Assembly: GCA_023132135.1 (NCBI GenBank)
Contig: JAGLYR010000084.1
Location: 1-8,627 of the forward strand
Reading direction: 5' to 3'
Length of the DNA: 8,627 nucleotides
From: Candidatus Eiseniibacteriota bacterium
GTDB taxonomy: Bacteria > Arandabacterota > Arandabacteria > JAGLYR01
Within the stretch, counting starts at the first letter, position 1; the number at the start of each line of letters is the position of its first letter. Of the stretch, positions 1 through 8,584 are shown one piece after another. A program made the position numbers and the translations under genes. The notes under the pieces are model-generated. The model did not search any database and was not told the DNA's origin. It was given only the letters and a program-made list of their open reading frames with translations.

Positions 1-3000
1 CTCTACCCGGACGAGGGAGGAGGGGTAATGGCCGGCGCGGAAATCGGCCTCACCGCAGCTCTCCTCATCAACAGCTCCCGGCCTCCCCAGAAGTTGACGG
101 ACGATATTCTGCCGTCCCGGACGGAGCAGGGGGCCGCGTTCTTCTACGATCCGGATGTGGATACACTCTGGACCGACACGGTGATCCGGATTGTCGTGGA
201 TGGCAACAACGACGGGGTGCCCGACACACAGAAGGGCGAGGGCACGATCACCGGGACGGTTCTGTTCGACGACCTTTCCGCATCTCCCTTTCCGGCGGTC
301 GAGGTGTCTGCATATGATCTGCCGGACGGGGTCGAACCCTTCCGTACCATCCGGTCGGACACTTCGGACGGGACCTTCCTGCTGGAGGAGTTGACAGACG
401 GCGGTTCTTTCCGTTTGACCTTCACCCATCCGTGGTACGAACCGGCGACGGTGGATAGCGTATTCATCCCCGTGGATGATCCGGCCGTCAGCCTCGGTCC
501 GGTGCCGCTCACTGCCTACACCGGCTCGATCTCCGGAACCGTCCTTCCGAGGATCGTCGTTGCCTGGGTCGTGGCCCATCAGAATGGGACACCCGTCGAC
601 AGCGTCCTCACCGACGGCTCCACGGGTGACTACCAGGTGATTCATCTGAACACGGGGACCTACGGCATCGTGGTGAATCCTGTGACGGCATGCTATGTGG
701 GGGCGACGGCTGAATTGATCGGTGTCGTCAACGGGGCCGACACAGTGATCGAGGACCTGACCCTCACGCCCTTCGGGTCCATCGGCGGGTCGGTCACCCC
801 GGCAACCGAGCTTGTGACGTTGGAAGCCGTTCAGGGAGACAGCATCTTTGCCCACATCCAGACTACGGGAACCTACCGGCTGTCGTGCTTGCCTGCGGGT
901 GTCTACTCGGTCCGCGTGGCGCCGGAGAGCCCGGAGTTTGCCGGCGCCCAGCGTGACAGCGTTCGGGTTCTTGATGGGCAGGAGACTTCCGGTATCAACT
1001 TCACGCTGCTGGGTGTCTCGACCTGGCGATTTGCCACCGATCCGGTGGGCGACGATCATGGGCCCCACCACCAGGTAGACCCGGCGGGCAGGCTGGTCCT
1101 AATGGATTGGAACGGCCACTATGTCTACGAGGACCGGTCCAGGGTCCCGGCGGATCTCATCCCGACGTTGGAGCCGGTCGATGGGCTCTACTACGTGTAC
1201 CCGACCAGCCTGGCGTTCCCTCGGGGATCTCACGACATTCACAGCTTCGAGGTCAGGGACCGCGACACGGCCATTGAGTTCGTGGTGACCGTTGGAGCAG
1301 TCCCCGATCCGGCGAATCCCGAACCCTACGACTACGCGTCCTGGGTGGGGTTCCTGGAAGAGGACGCCAAGATCCTTCTCCAGCAGATCAGCATCTACAT
1401 GGACGCGGGGCCGGGGGGCAGCATCCGGGGACTCCCCTGGCGCGGCCACGACATTTCCGAGTGGGACGCGTGGGAGTATGCGCTGGCCCTCAGCGGATGG
1501 TGGAAGGGCGTGATCCACTCCAATGGATCCAGCCTCCGTGAGAACTACTCGGTGTTCAAGACCGATCTGGACATAGATCTCCACGCCGATTTCGAGACGG
1601 GCACTATCTCGGCAAGCGTGCCCAAGACGCTCCTGGGCAATCCCACGGAAGAGGAGTTCGCCGAGTGGGATATCCTGGTGGTCCTCTGCGGGCACGACTG
1701 CTGTGATGACGACCTGAACCTGGGCGCCATCCGCTGGGTGGAGGGAGCTTTCAGTCCGGAGTGGCGGTTCCAGGGCGGGCGCAGTGGGGGCGAGGGAGCG
1801 TGGGACGGGAAGCAGGACCCCAACGTGGTGGACTTCCTGCCGCTGCCGGGGCTCGGCCACGACATGCCCGACACTCTTTCCGGCGAAATGATGGACTACG
1901 CAAGACCACATAACCGGATCCGGATCGAGACGGATGAGTATCCGGTCCGTCTGGCCGCTACCCGGTTTGAAGACCGTCAGGCTCCCGTGATGGATTTCGC
2001 CCAGTACTTCGGTTTCACGGCCGGGACTGAGGCCAATCCGGATTGGACCCTGAGCAACTACAACGAATCCCAGGGGGCCATGGATATCAACGAGGTGGAC
2101 GCCTACGGCGGCGGGAGCGCGGCGTTGATTACCGAGACAGTCGGGGCCTCGTTCCAGAAGTCAATCTGGAGGGACCGGCCGGGGTGGTACAACGTCCAAG
2201 TACGATCCATCGCTCTGGGTCAGACAATGCGCCTCCTGATCTGCCCGGGAAGCTCACTGTCTTCTGCGCTGACGGACACAACCCTCGTGACGCTGCCCTT
2301 CAGTTGGGCGTGGATCGACACCGTTTGGACCGCCACGCATCTCCAGCAGGGTTTCAACACATTCCGGTTTGAGTTCGCCCAAGGCGTGCCCGGGGATGTT
2401 TCCGACGGGCTGATGCTGGTTCCCGCTGTCCCGGAGGGGGAACCGCCGCTGGATCTTCAGATCGCCCGCCTGGCCAACACGGACCGCATTACCATTCGCA
2501 CCGGAATCATGGACAACATGGGCTTCGAGCACTACGTCGACGCGTGGTTGGTCTATCAGCTGCCGGGAGGGGATACTCTCCGGGTCGCGCTGGGAGAGGA
2601 AGAAGGCTCCAACGAATGGTTGGCGGATATCGAAGTCGCGGGACTCGACACACTTCTCTTCCACTTCGAACTGAAGGACAACGCGGGTCCCCTGAATCCG
2701 GAACCCAGCGTGGACAACTTCGCCGCGTATCCGAGGATTTCGCCCGAGGATCCTCTGACCCCCACGGTCCGGGATTCCCTGCTGGCCCTGGGCGATCTGG
2801 ATGCCTCCCGGTTCTTCTACCGGATTCCGATTGTGGAGATCGACCGCTTCGAAGCGCGGGAAGTCGGATGGGTTCCGAAGCGGAAGAACTTCCGCTCTCC
2901 CGAGGGATCCAAGATACTCATCTCGCAGTCTGCGGTTCCGGATGGAACGGACGGGCTGACGGTTTCCGTTGCGGCGGGCTCGCCGGACGCGATTCCGTCT

Positions 3001-3642
3001 CTTTCCTGCGCGCCCAACCGGGCCAACCTCCGATCCATCGGCTTCGCCCGGGACATCCGGGTGACCGATCTGGCCGGGGGACCCATCACGGCGTTTGAGG
3101 AACCGATCCAGATCTCGATTCACTACGAGCTTCCGGCAGAACAGGAGGCTGGCATCACCGAGGGCAATCTGGTGCTGTACCGCTGGGAGCCGCGGACGTC
3201 CCGCTGGGTGTTTGTGGGAGGCCGTGTGAACCCCGATGCCAGGACGATCCTTGCCCGGGTGAAGCACTTGGCGGAGCGATATGCGGTGTTCGAGGACCGC
3301 GGCCTCGAGCGAGACCGGGCGGATTTCATCACGGGGATCAGCTTCACGCCCAACCCCTTCTCACCCAACGGGGACGGGATCTACGATGCTCTCCGCATCT
3401 CGTACCACCTGTGGGCGAACGCTACGATCACCATCGACATCTACGACATGAGCGGGCGCGAGGTGAACAACTTCGTTTTCGAGGAGACGGGATCGCCGGG
3501 CGAGGCACTGGGTCATGAGTGGGACGGGCGAGATACAAACGGCGAGATGGTGCCGTACGGGATCTACATCGTGCGGTTCCGGGCGGTGGATGAGAGCGAG
3601 TTTCTGTATCGCTTCAACAAGGCGGTGGCGGTTATCCGGTAG
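1..3642 (+). CDS. Large secreted multidomain protein with glucodextranase-C-like domain and FlgD-like sorting domain (5'-partial)
   Basis: The frame is open to the left edge. The first ATG (28) has AGGAGG four bases upstream but no signal peptide follows, so the gene probably begins outside the window. Residues below count from that ATG. A calcium-loop motif DGNNDGVPD lies at 58-66. Three carboxypeptidase-regulatory-like beta-sandwiches follow at about 72-160, 166-245 and 250-330, each opening with G-T/S-I-x-G-T/S-V. Residues about 336-608 resemble the PF09985 domain found at the C-terminus of glucodextranase and amylopullulanases (DPVGDDHGP, YVYPT, WEYAL...GW, SVPKTLLG, PNVVDFLP). Residues 655-800 look like a CBM-type beta-sandwich (GWYNVQVRS, GFNTFRFEF). 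An Ig-like module and a ZU5-like segment reach about 1090. Residues 1100-1204 are an FSPNGDG / FlgD-Ig-like domain, typical of type IX or gliding-type secreted proteins. No catalytic domain is visible. Role inferred: extracellular alpha-glucan-binding protein or the tail of a hydrolase. The domain calls are from memory of family patterns. Confidence 0.85.
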   Translation, partial: LYPDEGGGVMAGAEIGLTAALLINSSRPPQKLTDDILPSRTEQGAAFFYDPDVDTLWTDTVIRIVVDGNNDGVPDTQKGEGTITGTVLFDDLSASPFPAVEVSAYDLPDGVEPFRTIRSDTSDGTFLLEELTDGGSFRLTFTHPWYEPATVDSVFIPVDDPAVSLGPVPLTAYTGSISGTVLPRIVVAWVVAHQNGTPVDSVLTDGSTGDYQVIHLNTGTYGIVVNPVTACYVGATAELIGVVNGADTVIEDLTLTPFGSIGGSVTPATELVTLEAVQGDSIFAHIQTTGTYRLSCLPAGVYSVRVAPESPEFAGAQRDSVRVLDGQETSGINFTLLGVSTWRFATDPVGDDHGPHHQVDPAGRLVLMDWNGHYVYEDRSRVPADLIPTLEPVDGLYYVYPTSLAFPRGSHDIHSFEVRDRDTAIEFVVTVGAVPDPANPEPYDYASWVGFLEEDAKILLQQISIYMDAGPGGSIRGLPWRGHDISEWDAWEYALALSGWWKGVIHSNGSSLRENYSVFKTDLDIDLHADFETGTISASVPKTLLGNPTEEEFAEWDILVVLCGHDCCDDDLNLGAIRWVEGAFSPEWRFQGGRSGGEGAWDGKQDPNVVDFLPLPGLGHDMPDTLSGEMMDYARPHNRIRIETDEYPVRLAATRFEDRQAPVMDFAQYFGFTAGTEANPDWTLSNYNESQGAMDINEVDAYGGGSAALITETVGASFQKSIWRDRPGWYNVQVRSIALGQTMRLLICPGSSLSSALTDTTLVTLPFSWAWIDTVWTATHLQQGFNTFRFEFAQGVPGDVSDGLMLVPAVPEGEPPLDLQIARLANTDRITIRTGIMDNMGFEHYVDAWLVYQLPGGDTLRVALGEEEGSNEWLADIEVAGLDTLLFHFELKDNAGPLNPEPSVDNFAAYPRISPEDPLTPTVRDSLLALGDLDASRFFYRIPIVEIDRFEAREVGWVPKRKNFRSPEGSKILISQSAVPDGTDGLTVSVAAGSPDAIPSLSCAPNRANLRSIGFARDIRVTDLAGGPITAFEEPIQISIHYELPAEQEAGITEGNLVLYRWEPRTSRWVFVGGRVNPDARTILARVKHLAERYAVFEDRGLERDRADFITGISFTPNPFSPNGDGIYDALRISYHLWANATITIDIYDMSGREVNNFVFEETGSPGEALGHEWDGRDTNGEMVPYGIYIVRFRAVDESEFLYRFNKAVAVIR

Positions 3643-3647
3643 AGGTG
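3642..3647 (+). promoter_or_regulatory. Ribosome-binding site of the PorV-like gene, overlapping the upstream stop
   Basis: GAGGTG begins on the last base of the TAG stop of the upstream gene (3640-3642) and lies seven bases before the ATG at 3655. The overlap implies that ribosomes finishing the large secreted protein can reinitiate here, so the two genes are probably translationally coupled. It also supports 3655 over the in-frame ATGs at 3673 and 3682. Confidence 0.7.
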
Positions 3648-3654
3648 TGAAGGA

Positions 3655-4530
3655 ATGAGAGGGATAGGACCTATGCGTCCTATGGGACCTATACTGATAG
3701 CTCTGGCACTCGCCATGCCTGTGGCAGCGCGCGCCGATTTCCGCGACCTGGAGATTGGTGCACGTCCTTTGGCGGTGGGTGGGGCGTTCGTCTCGATCAG
3801 TGACGACGCCAACGGTGTCTACTGGAACCCGGCGGGACTGGTGTGGATGGAGCGCCCGGAACTCCTTGGGATGATCACCCGGGCCTATGGCATCGATGAT
3901 CTGGGTCTTTACTACCTGAGCGGGGCCGGGAAGGTGGGGCAATTTGCCCTGGGCGGCAGCTGGATGCGCCTGGGGATCACGGACGTTTACAACGAGGACA
4001 CGTTCTCCTTCGCTGGAGCCAGGGGTTGGGGAAAGATGTCCTTCGGCGTCACGCTCAAGTTCCTGAAGGTGGATGCTCCGGGTTACGAGCAGTACGACGA
4101 TCCCGGGTACATGGGGGCCCAGATGGAGCCCACGCTGGATGTAGGGTGGCAGTGGCGTCCTCTGAAGAGCCTGTCTTTCGGGGTGGCCGCCTACAACTTG
4201 ACGCGCCCGGAGATCAACCTGATCGACACGACGACGGAAACGGATCCGGTTCCCAGAGATTACCGTGCCGGATTCTCGTTCGTTGTTCGGGAGGTCTGGC
4301 TGTTGACCATGGATGTGGTCAAGCGGGACACGGACGAATCGTCGTCCACGCTCCATGCGGGGACGGAACTCTGGTTCTATGACGCTGTTGCTCTGAGAGC
4401 CGGAGTCGACCGGGGCCGGATTACCATGGGTGCGGCCGTGGATGCCGGACGCTGGCAGATTGACGGGGTGGTGTCGGCACATCAGATGATGGGGAATCTG
4501 TACCGCCTGTCCCTGACGTTGCGGAAGTAG
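3655..4530 (+). CDS. PorV/PorQ-family outer-membrane beta-barrel protein
   Basis: The 291-residue product starts with a signal peptide: hydrophobic core PILIALALAMPV and a likely cleavage AARA|DF after residue 27. The mature N-terminus carries the family signature seen in PorV, PorQ and related FadL-like barrels: ARPLAVGGAF (about 36-45), SDDANGVYWNPAGL (49-62), including the NPAG turn. The rest alternates short amphipathic strands with aromatic and glycine residues, as in a barrel of about 14 strands, and ends in SLTLRK. In type IX secretion PorV is the shuttle that binds the C-terminal signal of cargo and passes it to the surface attachment complex. Many bacteria carry numerous paralogues of unproven role. 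The gene sits 12 bp after a cargo-like protein with a sorting-type C-terminal domain, which favours a dedicated partner role (inference). The family call is firm and the function less so. Confidence 0.85.
   Translation: MRGIGPMRPMGPILIALALAMPVAARADFRDLEIGARPLAVGGAFVSISDDANGVYWNPAGLVWMERPELLGMITRAYGIDDLGLYYLSGAGKVGQFALGGSWMRLGITDVYNEDTFSFAGARGWGKMSFGVTLKFLKVDAPGYEQYDDPGYMGAQMEPTLDVGWQWRPLKSLSFGVAAYNLTRPEINLIDTTTETDPVPRDYRAGFSFVVREVWLLTMDVVKRDTDESSSTLHAGTELWFYDAVALRAGVDRGRITMGAAVDAGRWQIDGVVSAHQMMGNLYRLSLTLRK
3667..3693 (+). repeat. Three 9-nt tandem repeats with a nested 7-bp inverted repeat in the signal-peptide region
   Basis: Three consecutive 9-mers, GGACCTATG / CGTCCTATG / GGACCTATA, encode GPM-RPM-GPI in the n-region of the PorV-like signal peptide. 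Within and just before them, ATAGGAC (3664-3670) and GTCCTAT (3677-3683) form a perfect 7-bp inverted repeat with a 6-base loop, starting nine bases after the ATG. The hairpin could influence initiation, or may simply follow from the repeat unit. Confidence 0.75.
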
Positions 4531-4533
4531 GAG
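4529..4533 (+). promoter_or_regulatory. Ribosome-binding site of the third gene, overlapping the upstream stop
   Basis: AGGAG begins inside the TAG stop of the PorV-like gene (4528-4530) and lies six bases before the ATG at 4540. Spacing is near ideal and the overlap again suggests translational coupling. Confidence 0.7.
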
Positions 4534-4539
4534 AAGGGC

Positions 4540-6039
4540 ATGAGAACAAGTCCCTATGGACACGACTGGACGCGAAGGCTGGCTGTGCCGGCGGCCGTCG
4601 TGTGCCTGGGCCTGACTTGCTTTTTGCCGACCGTTGACGATGCCTGTGCTCGCGCGCGGCTCGAGGGCTACTACGAAACCGAAGCTGTGGCGGAGAACGA
4701 CAACAGTCTGCAGGAAGGTTCCCGCTGGATTTTCAACCCGATGCGGCATCTCTACGAGTTCAAGTTCTCGGCGAATCCGCATCGCCGTTTTGATATCTGG
4801 ACCAAGTTCAATGGGGACAATAACAACGTCGACCGCAACCTCCACGTGCGCCGGTTCTGGCTCATCGAAGGCCACGCGAGAGTATTCGGGGATGGTTGGG
4901 AGGCGATCGCTTTTACGAAGGAAGACCGCTACTGGATGGCCAACGTGCTCTCCCACTTTTTCACCTGGGCGGACGGCAGTCGTCTGCGCACGGGCGACAA
5001 CATGGGAATCCGTCTGCAACGCTGGAACTGGTGGCATGGCTTGAACGCGACCGTCATCTACAGCGATTTCTCCGGGAACGTCGAACCTGCAGAGGACGGC
5101 AAGATCGTCAAGATCGACCGGTATTGGGAGAAGCAGAAGCTGTTCCTTGCCGGGTACTGGGTCAGGAAGGACTGGAACGAGCGGACAGCGGATGGTGAGG
5201 TCGAGTATGACAGTGCCGACAACAATCAGGTGTTCGGGCTCGACATCCGGTGGAACCGCGGGTTCGAGTGGGCTATGCAGCTGGGGCACTCCGAGATCCC
5301 GGGCGACCGGGTATGGGGAACCAGCGACAACAGCTGGGCCTTTGCCACCGAGATCCGGAACCTGAGAGCGGGGCCTTTCCAGCTGAAGCTCTCCCACCGG
5401 AACTACGGGAAAGAGTTCTTCAACTATCTCTCGGGAGCGTTGGACGCGGGCGGACAACAGGGTCGGCGGTACTACAACGGGGAGTTCCTCTACGGATTGC
5501 CGAACCTGGCCGTTACCACGCGGGTCAGCTACGAGCACTACGATCAGGACCAGGTGGGAACCACCCGGGACCAGTCTGTAGACAACGTGTTCGGCGAGGT
5601 CTACGTGGAGTGGATTCACGGGTTTGCCTCGCGTGTGTACTACCAGAAGACAGACAACATCGATGGGCGCTGGAAGCATCTCTTCGGAGAATTCCTGGTT
5701 GAGAACTTCCTGGCCAAGCTGAAAGCGCAGTTCAAGATCCGGAATATGGACACCAGGTACGAGGAAATCCTGTACGGGATCGACCTCGGGTTCAAGCTCA
5801 GCGACAAGTTCAAGGCGAATGTCAGGGCGATGACCAGCGACCACCGGAAGACCGTTCTGGCGCGGCAGTCGCTCTGGGCCCAGGGCATCTACCACGTGGG
5901 CGACCAGATGGAGCTCACGTTCGACTACGGACCCTCGTGGCACGGGGACAATGATCTGGTGAACGACGGCAGCTTCGCCGGGAGCCAGGATGCCGACATC
6001 ACCCATCGGTTTGCGATGAAGTTGAGGGCCTGGTGGTAG
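4540..6039 (+). CDS. Outer-membrane beta-barrel protein of unknown function
   Basis: The 499-residue product has a long signal peptide: basic n-region with RR at 12-13, hydrophobic core about 15-29, cleavage probably near ACA|RA (37-39). The mature chain from about L41 shows no soluble domain. It is a run of alternating-hydrophobicity strands rich in Trp, Tyr and Phe, separated by polar Asp/Asn/Gly loops (for example the GDNNNVDRN loop and the GDNDLVNDG loop). It ends RFAMKLRAWW, an aromatic C-terminus as expected for a BAM-folded barrel. Length suits roughly 16-18 strands. I do not recognise a named family. Segment by segment it is collinear with the C-terminal barrel of the next gene (from LEGYY versus VNGRY, through VFGLDI versus VFALDL, to the last strand), so the two are probable paralogues, this one without binding domains. 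No TonB plug or TonB box is visible. Role inferred: porin-like channel or surface scaffold in the same pathway. Confidence 0.85.
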   Translation: MRTSPYGHDWTRRLAVPAAVVCLGLTCFLPTVDDACARARLEGYYETEAVAENDNSLQEGSRWIFNPMRHLYEFKFSANPHRRFDIWTKFNGDNNNVDRNLHVRRFWLIEGHARVFGDGWEAIAFTKEDRYWMANVLSHFFTWADGSRLRTGDNMGIRLQRWNWWHGLNATVIYSDFSGNVEPAEDGKIVKIDRYWEKQKLFLAGYWVRKDWNERTADGEVEYDSADNNQVFGLDIRWNRGFEWAMQLGHSEIPGDRVWGTSDNSWAFATEIRNLRAGPFQLKLSHRNYGKEFFNYLSGALDAGGQQGRRYYNGEFLYGLPNLAVTTRVSYEHYDQDQVGTTRDQSVDNVFGEVYVEWIHGFASRVYYQKTDNIDGRWKHLFGEFLVENFLAKLKAQFKIRNMDTRYEEILYGIDLGFKLSDKFKANVRAMTSDHRKTVLARQSLWAQGIYHVGDQMELTFDYGPSWHGDNDLVNDGSFAGSQDADITHRFAMKLRAWW

Positions 6040-6062
6040 GGTGAGATCCCGTGCCGCGTGAT

Positions 6063-6068
6063 AAGGGG
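6063..6068 (+). promoter_or_regulatory. Ribosome-binding site of the CBM20-barrel gene
   Basis: AAGGGG lies five bases before the ATG at 6074 and eight before a second in-frame ATG at 6077. Either start gives the same signal peptide apart from one methionine. The 34-bp gap upstream contains no recognisable promoter, so transcription probably reads through from the preceding gene. Confidence 0.55.
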
Positions 6069-6073
6069 ACAGG

Positions 6074-8584
6074 ATGATGGGCAAGAAAAAACTGAGGACT
6101 GTGCTGGTCCTCCTCGGAAGCATGTTGATTCCGGCGATGGGGTGGGCCGAGGAGGTCACTTTCCGGGTCACGGTGCCCGGGAATACCCCGGCGGGAGAGA
6201 GCGTCTACGTCGTGGGGAATCTTGCCGGGCTGGGCGAGTGGGATCCGGGCGCGTTGGAGATGACGTCGGTGGAGTCTGGAATCTGGGAAATCGTCCTCGA
6301 TCTGCCCGATGGAGCCTCGATCGAGTACAAGTACACGCGGGGTGGGTGGTCCTCCGTGGAAAAGACGAGCGATGGGGCCGAGTCGGATAACCGGACGGTG
6401 AGGATCGCAGCCGGCATGATCATCGAGGACGAGGTGCCCCGCTGGGCGGATGTCACGCCCGGGCCGAAGGCGAAACCTGTGACGTCTGCAACAGGGAAGA
6501 TGGTGGTCCTCTTTCGCGTAGTCGTGCCTCCCAAGACACCCGAGGGCGAGCCTGTCTACATCTCCGGAGATCTCCCGGAGTTCGGGGTCTGGGATGGGGG
6601 GCGCGTCGAGTTCACACAGGTCGAGCCCGGCGTCTGGGAGGCGGAGGTGGAATTCTCGGCTGCCGGATGGGCGGAGTACAAATACACGCGGGGAGGTTGG
6701 GGGACTGTTGAGAAAAAGGCCGACGGAGGCGAGGCGGACAACCGGAGAATAATGGTTGAACCCGGTGCCCTGATCGAAGATGTAGTGATCGCATGGGCCG
6801 ATGTTCCGGCCGAAGGTGGGGCCGAGGTCACGTTGCTCTCAAACACGGACCTCAGCTCCAGCATGATGGTGAACGGCCGCTACGTGAGCACGTACATCAG
6901 CGAGCGGGAACCGGATGATCGCTACCGGCTGAACCGGCCCTCCCACGATATCCGGCTGGACTTCCTGGCCACCGTGGGTCCGACTGTCTCGGTCTGGGCC
7001 CGTGCCAGTTTCTTCACCGGGGAGCAGTTCCATTTCTCCTTCGATTTCGACCGGGCCTGGGCTCATGTTCACCCGGAGGAGTTCGACCTGAAGGCATTCT
7101 ACAACGAAGAGATTGTTGCTTTTGATGATCCCTTCAACCTGGTCGGACACAGGGATCTCTGGAGCACCATCGGGAACGACAACATCCCCTTCGGGCGGGG
7201 GAGCTCCGGGGCCGAGATCCGGTTCGGGTTTCTCGGGATGGATCTGGACGGGATGGTGGCCAACATCCATGACTTTGACGTCCGCAATGATCCGGACGCA
7301 TTTGATGAGGTCGGCACGGATTGGATGGCCGGCCGTGTGACCCGTGATCTCGGACATTTCTGGCTGGGGCTCACAGGCAGGAGGATCCGGACAGCCAATT
7401 GGGCCAGTGTGTATGAGACGACCCCGCCGCCCCCTCAGTGGGAGATGGATGTTGGGGACTACAGCAACGAGTTCTTTGAGCTGAACGAGACCGATGATGT
7501 CTTCGCACTGGATCTGTCCACGACAGCTTTGAGAGGCGCTTTGGACCTGGTTCTCGGCGGCGGGTACCAGAAGTGGCAGGCGGGCTGGGTTATCGGAAGC
7601 GCCCGGGAGCGTGTGTACCTCGGCGAGCACGTGAAGGTCGACGACAAAATCGGCAGCACGTCCGGTTTCCTCGGGCTCGTGGGCGCGACCTTCCATCTGT
7701 CCCCGAATCTCACGCTTGGCTACCGGTTCCACAGGGAATCCCTGGATGCGCTCGGAGAAGGTGATTCGTACGTGGCTTGGGTGCTGAAGCACAGGGACGA
7801 CGCCAACCAGCACATTTTCCCCATCGGGCTGCCGGGTCACAACCGTGAAGTTGACCACCAGGAGTGGACGTTCGGCTGGTCCGGGTCCGCGGTGGAGTTG
7901 AATCTGCTGATCTCGAAGCACGATGACAACCGGCGGGCGTTCCTGGTTTCCAGCGACCGGCACGCGACGCAGACCCGCGTACTTCCGGAGATCGCCTTCC
8001 GGTTTGGAGACCGTCTGGAGACGATCTTCCGGTACGTCTACGAGCGCGGCACGCGGTTCGGGTTGAGTGAGAGCATGGGGATTTCCTACGCCGAGCAGGA
8101 ATGGGAAACAGGATATCGCTTCCGCTTCGCCTCGGAGACGGAGAAGGTAGACACGAGGATATTCGCCGTCAGCACGCGGTACAAGCTCAGGAGAAACTGG
8201 TATTGGGATCTTGACTACCAGCGTTGGAACCTCTGGCGCGACTACGGGAACAACGGATCGGTCGAGGTGGACGGAATCTACGGCATGTTGTTCACAGGGT
8301 TTACCTACGAACCTCGCAAGGGAATCCAGATCCAGCTCGCGCTGGGGGTGGATCCGGTGGACGACGAGGACGACCGCCTGGCCGGACGCGAGATGTTCAT
8401 GCGTCGCCGGCTGGGTGACTGGCAGTACTCGGACGGCGATGGAGACGGCATCAGGAACTACCAGGATCGGGTGAACTGGTCCGATGACACACCCGGTCTG
8501 GTCCGCTCGCCGACCATCGGGGAGCTGATGCAGGAGCTGAGTGATACGAAGCAGGTGATGATCAAAGCCAGGATCCAATTCTGA
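6074..8584 (+). CDS. Tandem CBM20-like starch-binding domains fused to an outer-membrane beta-barrel
   Basis: The 836-residue product begins with a clear signal peptide (KKK, then VLVLLGSMLIPAMGWA, cleavage after A25). Residues 28-127 and 145-244 are two CBM20/AMPK-glycogen-binding-like modules. Each has VYxxGxLxxxGxWD, GxWE, an EYKYTRGGW segment, VEK and DNR. W56/W173 and K86/K203 occupy positions used in CBM20 site 1; the second site Trp may be W92/W209, which is shifted relative to classical CBM20. A short linker (128-144) joins them. From about 253 to the end the sequence is a beta-barrel of about 580 residues with aromatic-rich strands and long polar loops, including a PPPP loop and a calcium-loop motif (D787-N795), ending VMIKARIQF with terminal Phe. 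The barrel is collinear with that of the preceding gene. The two modules imply alpha-glucan binding at the envelope; substrate and transport activity are inferred. CBM48-type glycogen binding or a purely structural role are alternatives. Confidence 0.87.
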   Translation: MMGKKKLRTVLVLLGSMLIPAMGWAEEVTFRVTVPGNTPAGESVYVVGNLAGLGEWDPGALEMTSVESGIWEIVLDLPDGASIEYKYTRGGWSSVEKTSDGAESDNRTVRIAAGMIIEDEVPRWADVTPGPKAKPVTSATGKMVVLFRVVVPPKTPEGEPVYISGDLPEFGVWDGGRVEFTQVEPGVWEAEVEFSAAGWAEYKYTRGGWGTVEKKADGGEADNRRIMVEPGALIEDVVIAWADVPAEGGAEVTLLSNTDLSSSMMVNGRYVSTYISEREPDDRYRLNRPSHDIRLDFLATVGPTVSVWARASFFTGEQFHFSFDFDRAWAHVHPEEFDLKAFYNEEIVAFDDPFNLVGHRDLWSTIGNDNIPFGRGSSGAEIRFGFLGMDLDGMVANIHDFDVRNDPDAFDEVGTDWMAGRVTRDLGHFWLGLTGRRIRTANWASVYETTPPPPQWEMDVGDYSNEFFELNETDDVFALDLSTTALRGALDLVLGGGYQKWQAGWVIGSARERVYLGEHVKVDDKIGSTSGFLGLVGATFHLSPNLTLGYRFHRESLDALGEGDSYVAWVLKHRDDANQHIFPIGLPGHNREVDHQEWTFGWSGSAVELNLLISKHDDNRRAFLVSSDRHATQTRVLPEIAFRFGDRLETIFRYVYERGTRFGLSESMGISYAEQEWETGYRFRFASETEKVDTRIFAVSTRYKLRRNWYWDLDYQRWNLWRDYGNNGSVEVDGIYGMLFTGFTYEPRKGIQIQLALGVDPVDDEDDRLAGREMFMRRRLGDWQYSDGDGDGIRNYQDRVNWSDDTPGLVRSPTIGELMQELSDTKQVMIKARIQF
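6155..6454 (+). repeat. CBM20-like coding repeat, copy 1
   Basis: This encodes residues 28-127 of the CBM20-barrel protein. Hand alignment with copy 2 needs no gaps over 100 residues and gives about 52 identities. The EYKYTRGGW-coding segments match at 24 of 27 bases. This indicates an internal domain duplication, old enough to have diverged at about half of positions. Confidence 0.85.
6506..6805 (+). repeat. CBM20-like coding repeat, copy 2
   Basis: This encodes residues 145-244, the partner of copy 1. It keeps the aromatic and lysine positions of copy 1 (W173, K203, W209) and ends with the same WADV. Retention of these residues in both copies suggests that both are functional. Confidence 0.85.

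Follow-up and report, generated by a model that had tools for sequence, protein, structure and literature searches.

Tandem CBM20 modules joined to a predicted plug-less outer-membrane barrel in a conserved gene cassette associated with alpha-glucans

Introduction

The Sus system of Bacteroidota (SusC/D/E/F/G) acquires alpha-glucans by combining an outer-membrane barrel with separate glucan-binding proteins, an amylase and downstream uptake. TonB-dependent transporters consist of a 22-strand barrel with an N-terminal domain on the periplasmic side, the plug. The LamB maltoporin and the CymA cyclodextrin channel have 18 and 14 strands, respectively, and both are without a carbohydrate-binding module (CBM). 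CBM20 modules occur in amylases such as Aspergillus glucoamylase (1ac0) and maltotetraose hydrolase (7czj).

Here we describe a window of 8627 bp (the whole stretch of DNA analysed) that encodes two CBM20 modules and an outer-membrane barrel in one chain. Like a preliminary description of the same DNA, we know of no described system with this architecture, and neither a fusion of CBM20 or CBM48 to such a barrel nor the surrounding gene cassette was described in those parts of the open-licence literature that the search covered.

Results

Gene layout of the window

The window is an entire contig (C329) of a 3.4-Mb assembly with 345 contigs. It carries four plus-strand genes in head-to-tail order, separated by 9-34 bp, and the contig stops 43 bases past the stop codon of the last one, encoding what we call the CBM-barrel protein. 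The features are:

1-3642, plus strand: surface protein with CarboxypepD_reg repeats, 5' end lost at the contig end
about 1189-1839, plus strand: Glucodextran_C domain (PF09985) of the surface protein, Pfam E 1.6e-21
about 3346-3582, plus strand: CHU_C/FlgD-like, T9SS-type C-terminal tail of the surface protein, Pfam CHU_C E 1.5e-7
3655-4530, plus strand: outer-membrane protein of 291 aa resembling the PorV/PorQ family, NCBIfam NF033709 E 4e-16, under the curated cut-off
4540-6039, plus strand: barrel2, a second outer-membrane barrel of 499 aa, modelled with 24 strands, without Pfam match
6074-8584, plus strand: CBM-barrel protein of 836 aa, from the list of open reading frames
6074-6148, plus strand: signal peptide of the CBM-barrel protein, by sequence inspection (n-region KKK, hydrophobic core, AMGWA directly before EE)
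6149-6469, plus strand: CBM20 module 1, residues 26-132, PF00686 E 3.0e-13 and alignment to 1ac0; candidate ligand residues W56, K86 and W92
6500-6820, plus strand: CBM20 module 2, residues 143-249, PF00686 E 2.0e-5 and 52% identity to module 1; candidate ligand residues W173, K203 and W209
6833-8581, plus strand: predicted plug-less 22-strand outer-membrane beta-barrel, residues 254-836, from family HMM, AlphaFold2 and structure comparison

The PorV-like protein scores 59.5 bits against NF033709, which misses the cut-off of 90, although the similarity is clear. Long open reading frames on the minus strand (for example 3361-6171, 936 aa, and 6839-8578) were dismissed as GC-rich mirror frames, since the genes opposite them have homologues. 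A chance or annotation artefact was likewise ruled out, because the CBM modules exceed the Pfam cut-offs and the layout of reading frames is conserved.

The CBM20 modules

Inspection of the N-terminus of the CBM-barrel protein, MMGKKKLRTVLVLLGSMLIPAMGWA followed by EE, supports the signal peptide reported in the preliminary description. The whole protein matches Pfam CBM_20 with E=3.4e-19 and 68.9 bits (cut-off 23.3) in two stretches, 6152-6340 (E 3.0e-13, 51 bits) and 6506-6691 (E 2.0e-5, 26 bits), each of which exceeds 23.3 by itself. Modules 1 and 2 are identical at 52 of 100 residues, with an alignment score of 283, and none of 500 shuffles scored above 57. The profile check of the N-terminal region hence bears out the two half-identical CBM20 modules claimed earlier. 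Module 1 also matches solved CBM20 structures (7czj, E 1.8e-7; 1ac0, E 1.5e-6). Module 2 alone reaches E 0.13 at best against these, so its assignment follows from the Pfam match together with the resemblance to module 1.

In the phmmer alignment to the glucoamylase domain 1ac0 of Aspergillus (A. niger), W56 and K86 correspond to W543 and K578 of site 1. Site-1 residue W590 aligns with K97, and W92 of a GGW motif lies close by, so site 1 is partly canonical. The Tyr527/Tyr556 pair of site 2 is not evident in this alignment. Since W56 and K86 are kept, W92 is near and the site 2 pair is not evident, each module is likely to have one glucan site, as far as sequence can tell. With the CBM20s of amylases the modules have the fold family in common by sequence, and in this alignment the site-1 Trp and Lys. 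They differ in being paired at the N-terminus of the chain, ahead of an outer-membrane barrel, and in the second Trp (GGW), the position of which resembles that of AMPK-type CBM48.

The closest CBM20 pair found (38% over 221 aa) forms the N-terminus of a GH57 plus Glucodextran_C enzyme of another genome, and a second relative occupies the C-terminal position of a GH13 amylase. A Pfam profile search revealed no CBM20 in the window genome beyond the two modules. The same genome encodes more AMPK1_CBM-bearing proteins of 795-1193 aa on contigs C25, C119, C160 and C287 (L144, L147, L148 and L146, respectively), the C287 copy together with GH57.

A predicted 22-strand barrel without a plug

Residues 254-836 have neither a Pfam match nor a PDB relative by sequence. 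The full chain was modelled with AlphaFold2 from a 10-sequence alignment, and strands were counted by reading the DSSP list. The model contains 22 strands across 262-835, the final one being the C-terminal ...QVMIKARIQF, preceded by a long loop. Mean pLDDT is 56.5, many barrel strands reaching 70-89 while the CBM region is low; strand count and module placement are accordingly provisional. In structure comparison, residues 261-836 of the model align with 22-strand TonB-receptor barrels (Z 17.3, 371 residues, rmsd 3.8) from the first strand after the plug through the last strand. CymA, LamB and AlgE were also among the fold matches. Together with the Pfam results, the model upholds the earlier proposal of two CBM20 modules and a barrel ending in IQF in one chain.

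The likeness to TonB-dependent transporters therefore lies in the 22-strand barrel (Z about 17) and the N-terminal domain on the periplasmic side, at moderate model confidence. However, CBM20 modules, or CBM48 in relatives, stand at the place of the plug, and no plug (PF07715) or receptor Pfam match was found in the CBM-barrel protein at E<=1, for which reason we rejected membership in this group. True plugs exist in the genome, with seven PF07715 matches elsewhere. With LamB and CymA the protein would share a probable passage of maltodextrins ahead of a MalE-type ABC importer; a sequence relation to either was not found.

Outer-membrane proteins that have an even number of strands and end in a C-terminal Phe strand keep both chain ends in the periplasm. 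Given the 22 strands, and because residues 261-836 align with TonB-receptor barrels past their plug, the N-terminus is predicted to be periplasmic. The linker between CBM and barrel is short, with a median of 8 residues and a range of 3-17 (n = 45 homologues). Even strand number and short linker together suggest, at moderate model confidence, that the most probable location of the CBMs is the periplasmic mouth of the barrel and not the cell surface; they should be at this mouth or entering the lumen, surface display being less likely.

This prediction runs against a surface location of the CBMs. Type V secretion proteins have an N-terminal passenger followed by a barrel at the C-terminus, and the cassette partners seem surface-directed (CHU_C/FlgD tail, PorV-like protein), so that the CBMs might be threaded outward like an autotransporter passenger and catch starch granules or glycogen outside. 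The protein is no classical autotransporter (type Va), however: its barrel has 580 residues and 22 strands where the translocator has 12, and no autotransporter Pfam match was found in it. Moreover, a linker of 3-17 residues would scarcely span the pore, no linker helix is visible, and the even strand number places the N-terminus in the periplasm. We consider display on the surface unlikely.

Alternatively, the CBM next to the barrel might reside inside the lumen as a ligand-responsive plug or gate that replaces the plug of TonB receptors, glucan opening the channel. The CBM holds the chain position of that plug on a short linker, a 22-strand lumen can hold a domain of such size, and every readable homologue keeps at least one CBM. 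On the other hand, the low confidence of the module region leaves docking uninterpretable, and the absence of a PF07715 match gives no indication of TonB coupling, although the genome has true plugs. A CBM acting as a gate appears rather unlikely to us; the preferred position is the periplasmic mouth.

Barrel2 belongs to no Pfam or PDB family by sequence. Its AlphaFold2 model (pLDDT 72.9) has 24 strands and is nearest to PapC/FimD-usher-like 24-strand barrels (Z 18.8). As far as the model goes, this is a resemblance in shape and strand number, not in function.

Homologues of the barrel

Among the genomes sampled, about 65, drawn from several candidate phyla, encode a homologue of the barrel. 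With the barrel HMM, 33 of 80 genomes from one other phylum had a match, as did 22 of the 386 relatives sampled; some distant matches are weak (E 1e-4 to 1e-8). In a third phylum 17 of 20 genomes gave barrel matches, with full-length alignment. The window barrel itself scores E 3.7e-190 against the family HMM, a model that includes the window sequence. Relatives with the barrel include Candidatus Eisenbacteria and Krumholzibacteriia MAGs, lake and sediment bins.

All readable barrels (60/60) bear a CBM of alpha-glucan type, from family 20 or family 48, the minimum kept being one. The other readable N-termini (59/59) carry CBM48/AMPK1_CBM in one or two copies, and CBM20 above cut-off was found on no other barrel ORF among 52 genomes searched. 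Judged by these profile matches, tandem CBM20 on this barrel is peculiar to the window genome among readable loci. Of the architecture first described, a CBM before the barrel is hence widespread, but it is normally CBM48. In the barrel tree the window forms a long branch (1.46) outside the clade of its own class. An exchange of CBM48 for tandem CBM20 on a conserved barrel would be the simplest reading; owing to the long branch we are unsure of this history. The window protein belongs to the CBM-barrel family as defined here, namely an alpha-glucan CBM directly before the barrel with barrel2 next upstream.

Two loci deviate from the usual gene structure. At L165 (genome G468) the barrel ORF continues into the downstream protein with two CBM48 in a single 972-aa frame, in which the final residues of the barrel are unmatched; a frameshift or assembly error is therefore likelier than a true fusion. 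At L169 (genome G474) the barrel is broken into two adjacent ORFs of 506 and 237 aa, possibly by a frameshift or as a decayed copy.

The gene cassette

Neighbours were counted with local HMMs around the barrel at 48 loci; many missing neighbours reflect contig ends. The conserved order, seen in up to 48 loci, is surface protein, PorV-like protein, barrel2, CBM-barrel and CBM48 lipoprotein. Barrel2 lies directly 5' of the CBM-barrel gene in 45 of the 48 loci, a CBM48 protein directly 3' in 41 and a PorV-like homologue is present in 39. The surface-protein homologue with its Glucodextran_C domain was found upstream in 25/48, many other loci being cut by contig ends. Inspected copies of the downstream CBM48 protein have a lipobox-like start. 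In relatives the operon goes on with two BPD_transp_1 permeases, an SBP_bac_1 binding protein and an enzyme combining GH57, CBM48 and Glucodextran_C. In other candidate phyla GH13 or GH57 enzymes are found near the barrel loci; at L121 and L124 GH57 enzymes follow, with genes that by inspection resemble the importer set just named.

Some neighbouring secreted proteins contain five consecutive CBM48 modules (L099:1-3783, L113:10894-14523), and at L094 and L104 the similar neighbours are GH13 amylases, which have two or three CBM48. The cassette's non-enzymatic surface protein (window 1-3642) and a GH57 enzyme (L145:1355-5098, at its C-terminus) have Glucodextran_C in common, a hint that the domain anchors or binds glucan in both.

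Another contig of the window genome, C49, opens with a matching MalE (60% identity) and GH57 (48% over 1106 aa). The host operon was probably split by the assembly between C329 and C49; as the window ends 43 bases after the stop codon, their adjacency is deduced rather than read. The best MalF candidate in the bin reaches 39%, short of ortholog grade.

SusD (PF07980) was absent from all 15 genomes searched, the Bacteroides control being positive. SprA, the T9SS translocon, was present in 12 of 12 genomes tested, in agreement with the T9SS-type tail of the surface protein.

The two barrels could also work in export or assembly, their cargo being either an alpha-glucan or the T9SS surface protein together with the amylase, and the CBMs would hold polysaccharide as it is exported. 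AlgE, one of the fold matches, exports alginate, barrel2 resembles pilus ushers in strand number, PorV-like and T9SS-type genes adjoin, and SprA is present. Yet the neighbours are genes of degradation and import (GH57, GH13, MalE/F/G), and glycosyltransferases were not seen among the neighbours scanned. Export is, in our view, very unlikely.

Discussion

The gene context gives good support to the alpha-glucan role first proposed, and to outer-membrane alpha-glucan acquisition as the function of the cassette, which is probably a route for capturing and importing sugars of starch or glycogen type that does without SusC/SusD machinery. The suggestion that a single chain takes over from the Sus proteins did not hold, as the CBM-barrel protein belongs to a conserved multi-gene cassette with barrel2, PorV-like protein, T9SS-type surface protein, CBM48 lipoprotein, ABC importer genes and GH57 enzymes, among them a secreted amylase. 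Like Sus, this cassette pairs an outer-membrane barrel with separate glucan-binding proteins, an amylase and downstream uptake for an alpha-glucan target. Unlike Sus, it stands in genomes without a SusD match (15 searched), its CBMs are part of the barrel's own chain, which has no plug match, and it includes genes for a maltose-type ABC importer, two barrels and a PorV-like protein.

Based on CBM20 and barrel in one chain, the conserved cassette, the importer and GH57 neighbours and the absence of SusD from the genomes searched, we propose that the CBM-barrel protein conducts alpha-glucans across the outer membrane and captures them at a site in the periplasm. We assign this reading a probability of about 0.5; glucan binding, transport direction and periplasmic position are what we infer. 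Architecture, family, cassette and GH57/ABC context were computed, and the parts would cooperate as follows. The T9SS-type surface protein and the PorV-like protein would bind glucan outside. The C-terminal part would form the large plug-less barrel of 22 strands, and the two CBM20 modules, held by their short linker, would occupy its periplasmic mouth, the place of the plug in TonB receptors. There the modules may bind emerging starch- or glycogen-type chains or maltodextrins, and binding would bias diffusion inward and raise the substrate concentration available to the MalE-type binding protein and the GH57 amylase. Barrel2 may be a second channel or a partner of the CBM-barrel. One difficulty for such a conduit is that both barrels, with 22-24 strands and no plug, would have to be gated by loops or by partners.

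We regard the cassette as a variant of the alpha-glucan utilisation locus, and there is a real chance that its transporter represents a new class. More tentatively, and with considerable doubt, one may envisage a class of outer-membrane glycan transporters spread over several candidate phyla. These would have a 22-strand barrel in which an alpha-glucan-binding module, lying in the lumen or at the periplasmic mouth, takes over the position of the TonB plug, and in place of SusC/D they would rely on a T9SS surface protein, a PorV-like protein and a further barrel of 24 strands.

The window would be a natural case in which a conserved barrel has exchanged CBM48 for two CBM20 modules in tandem, and it raises the idea that an outer-membrane barrel may use a carbohydrate-binding module as its plug or as a trap at its mouth. 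The cassette may further provide a sequence-recognisable marker for alpha-glucan use in uncultured lineages. Finally, it suggests how candidate phyla of Gram-negative type that lack SusD could import starch or glycogen, polymers too big for ordinary porins.
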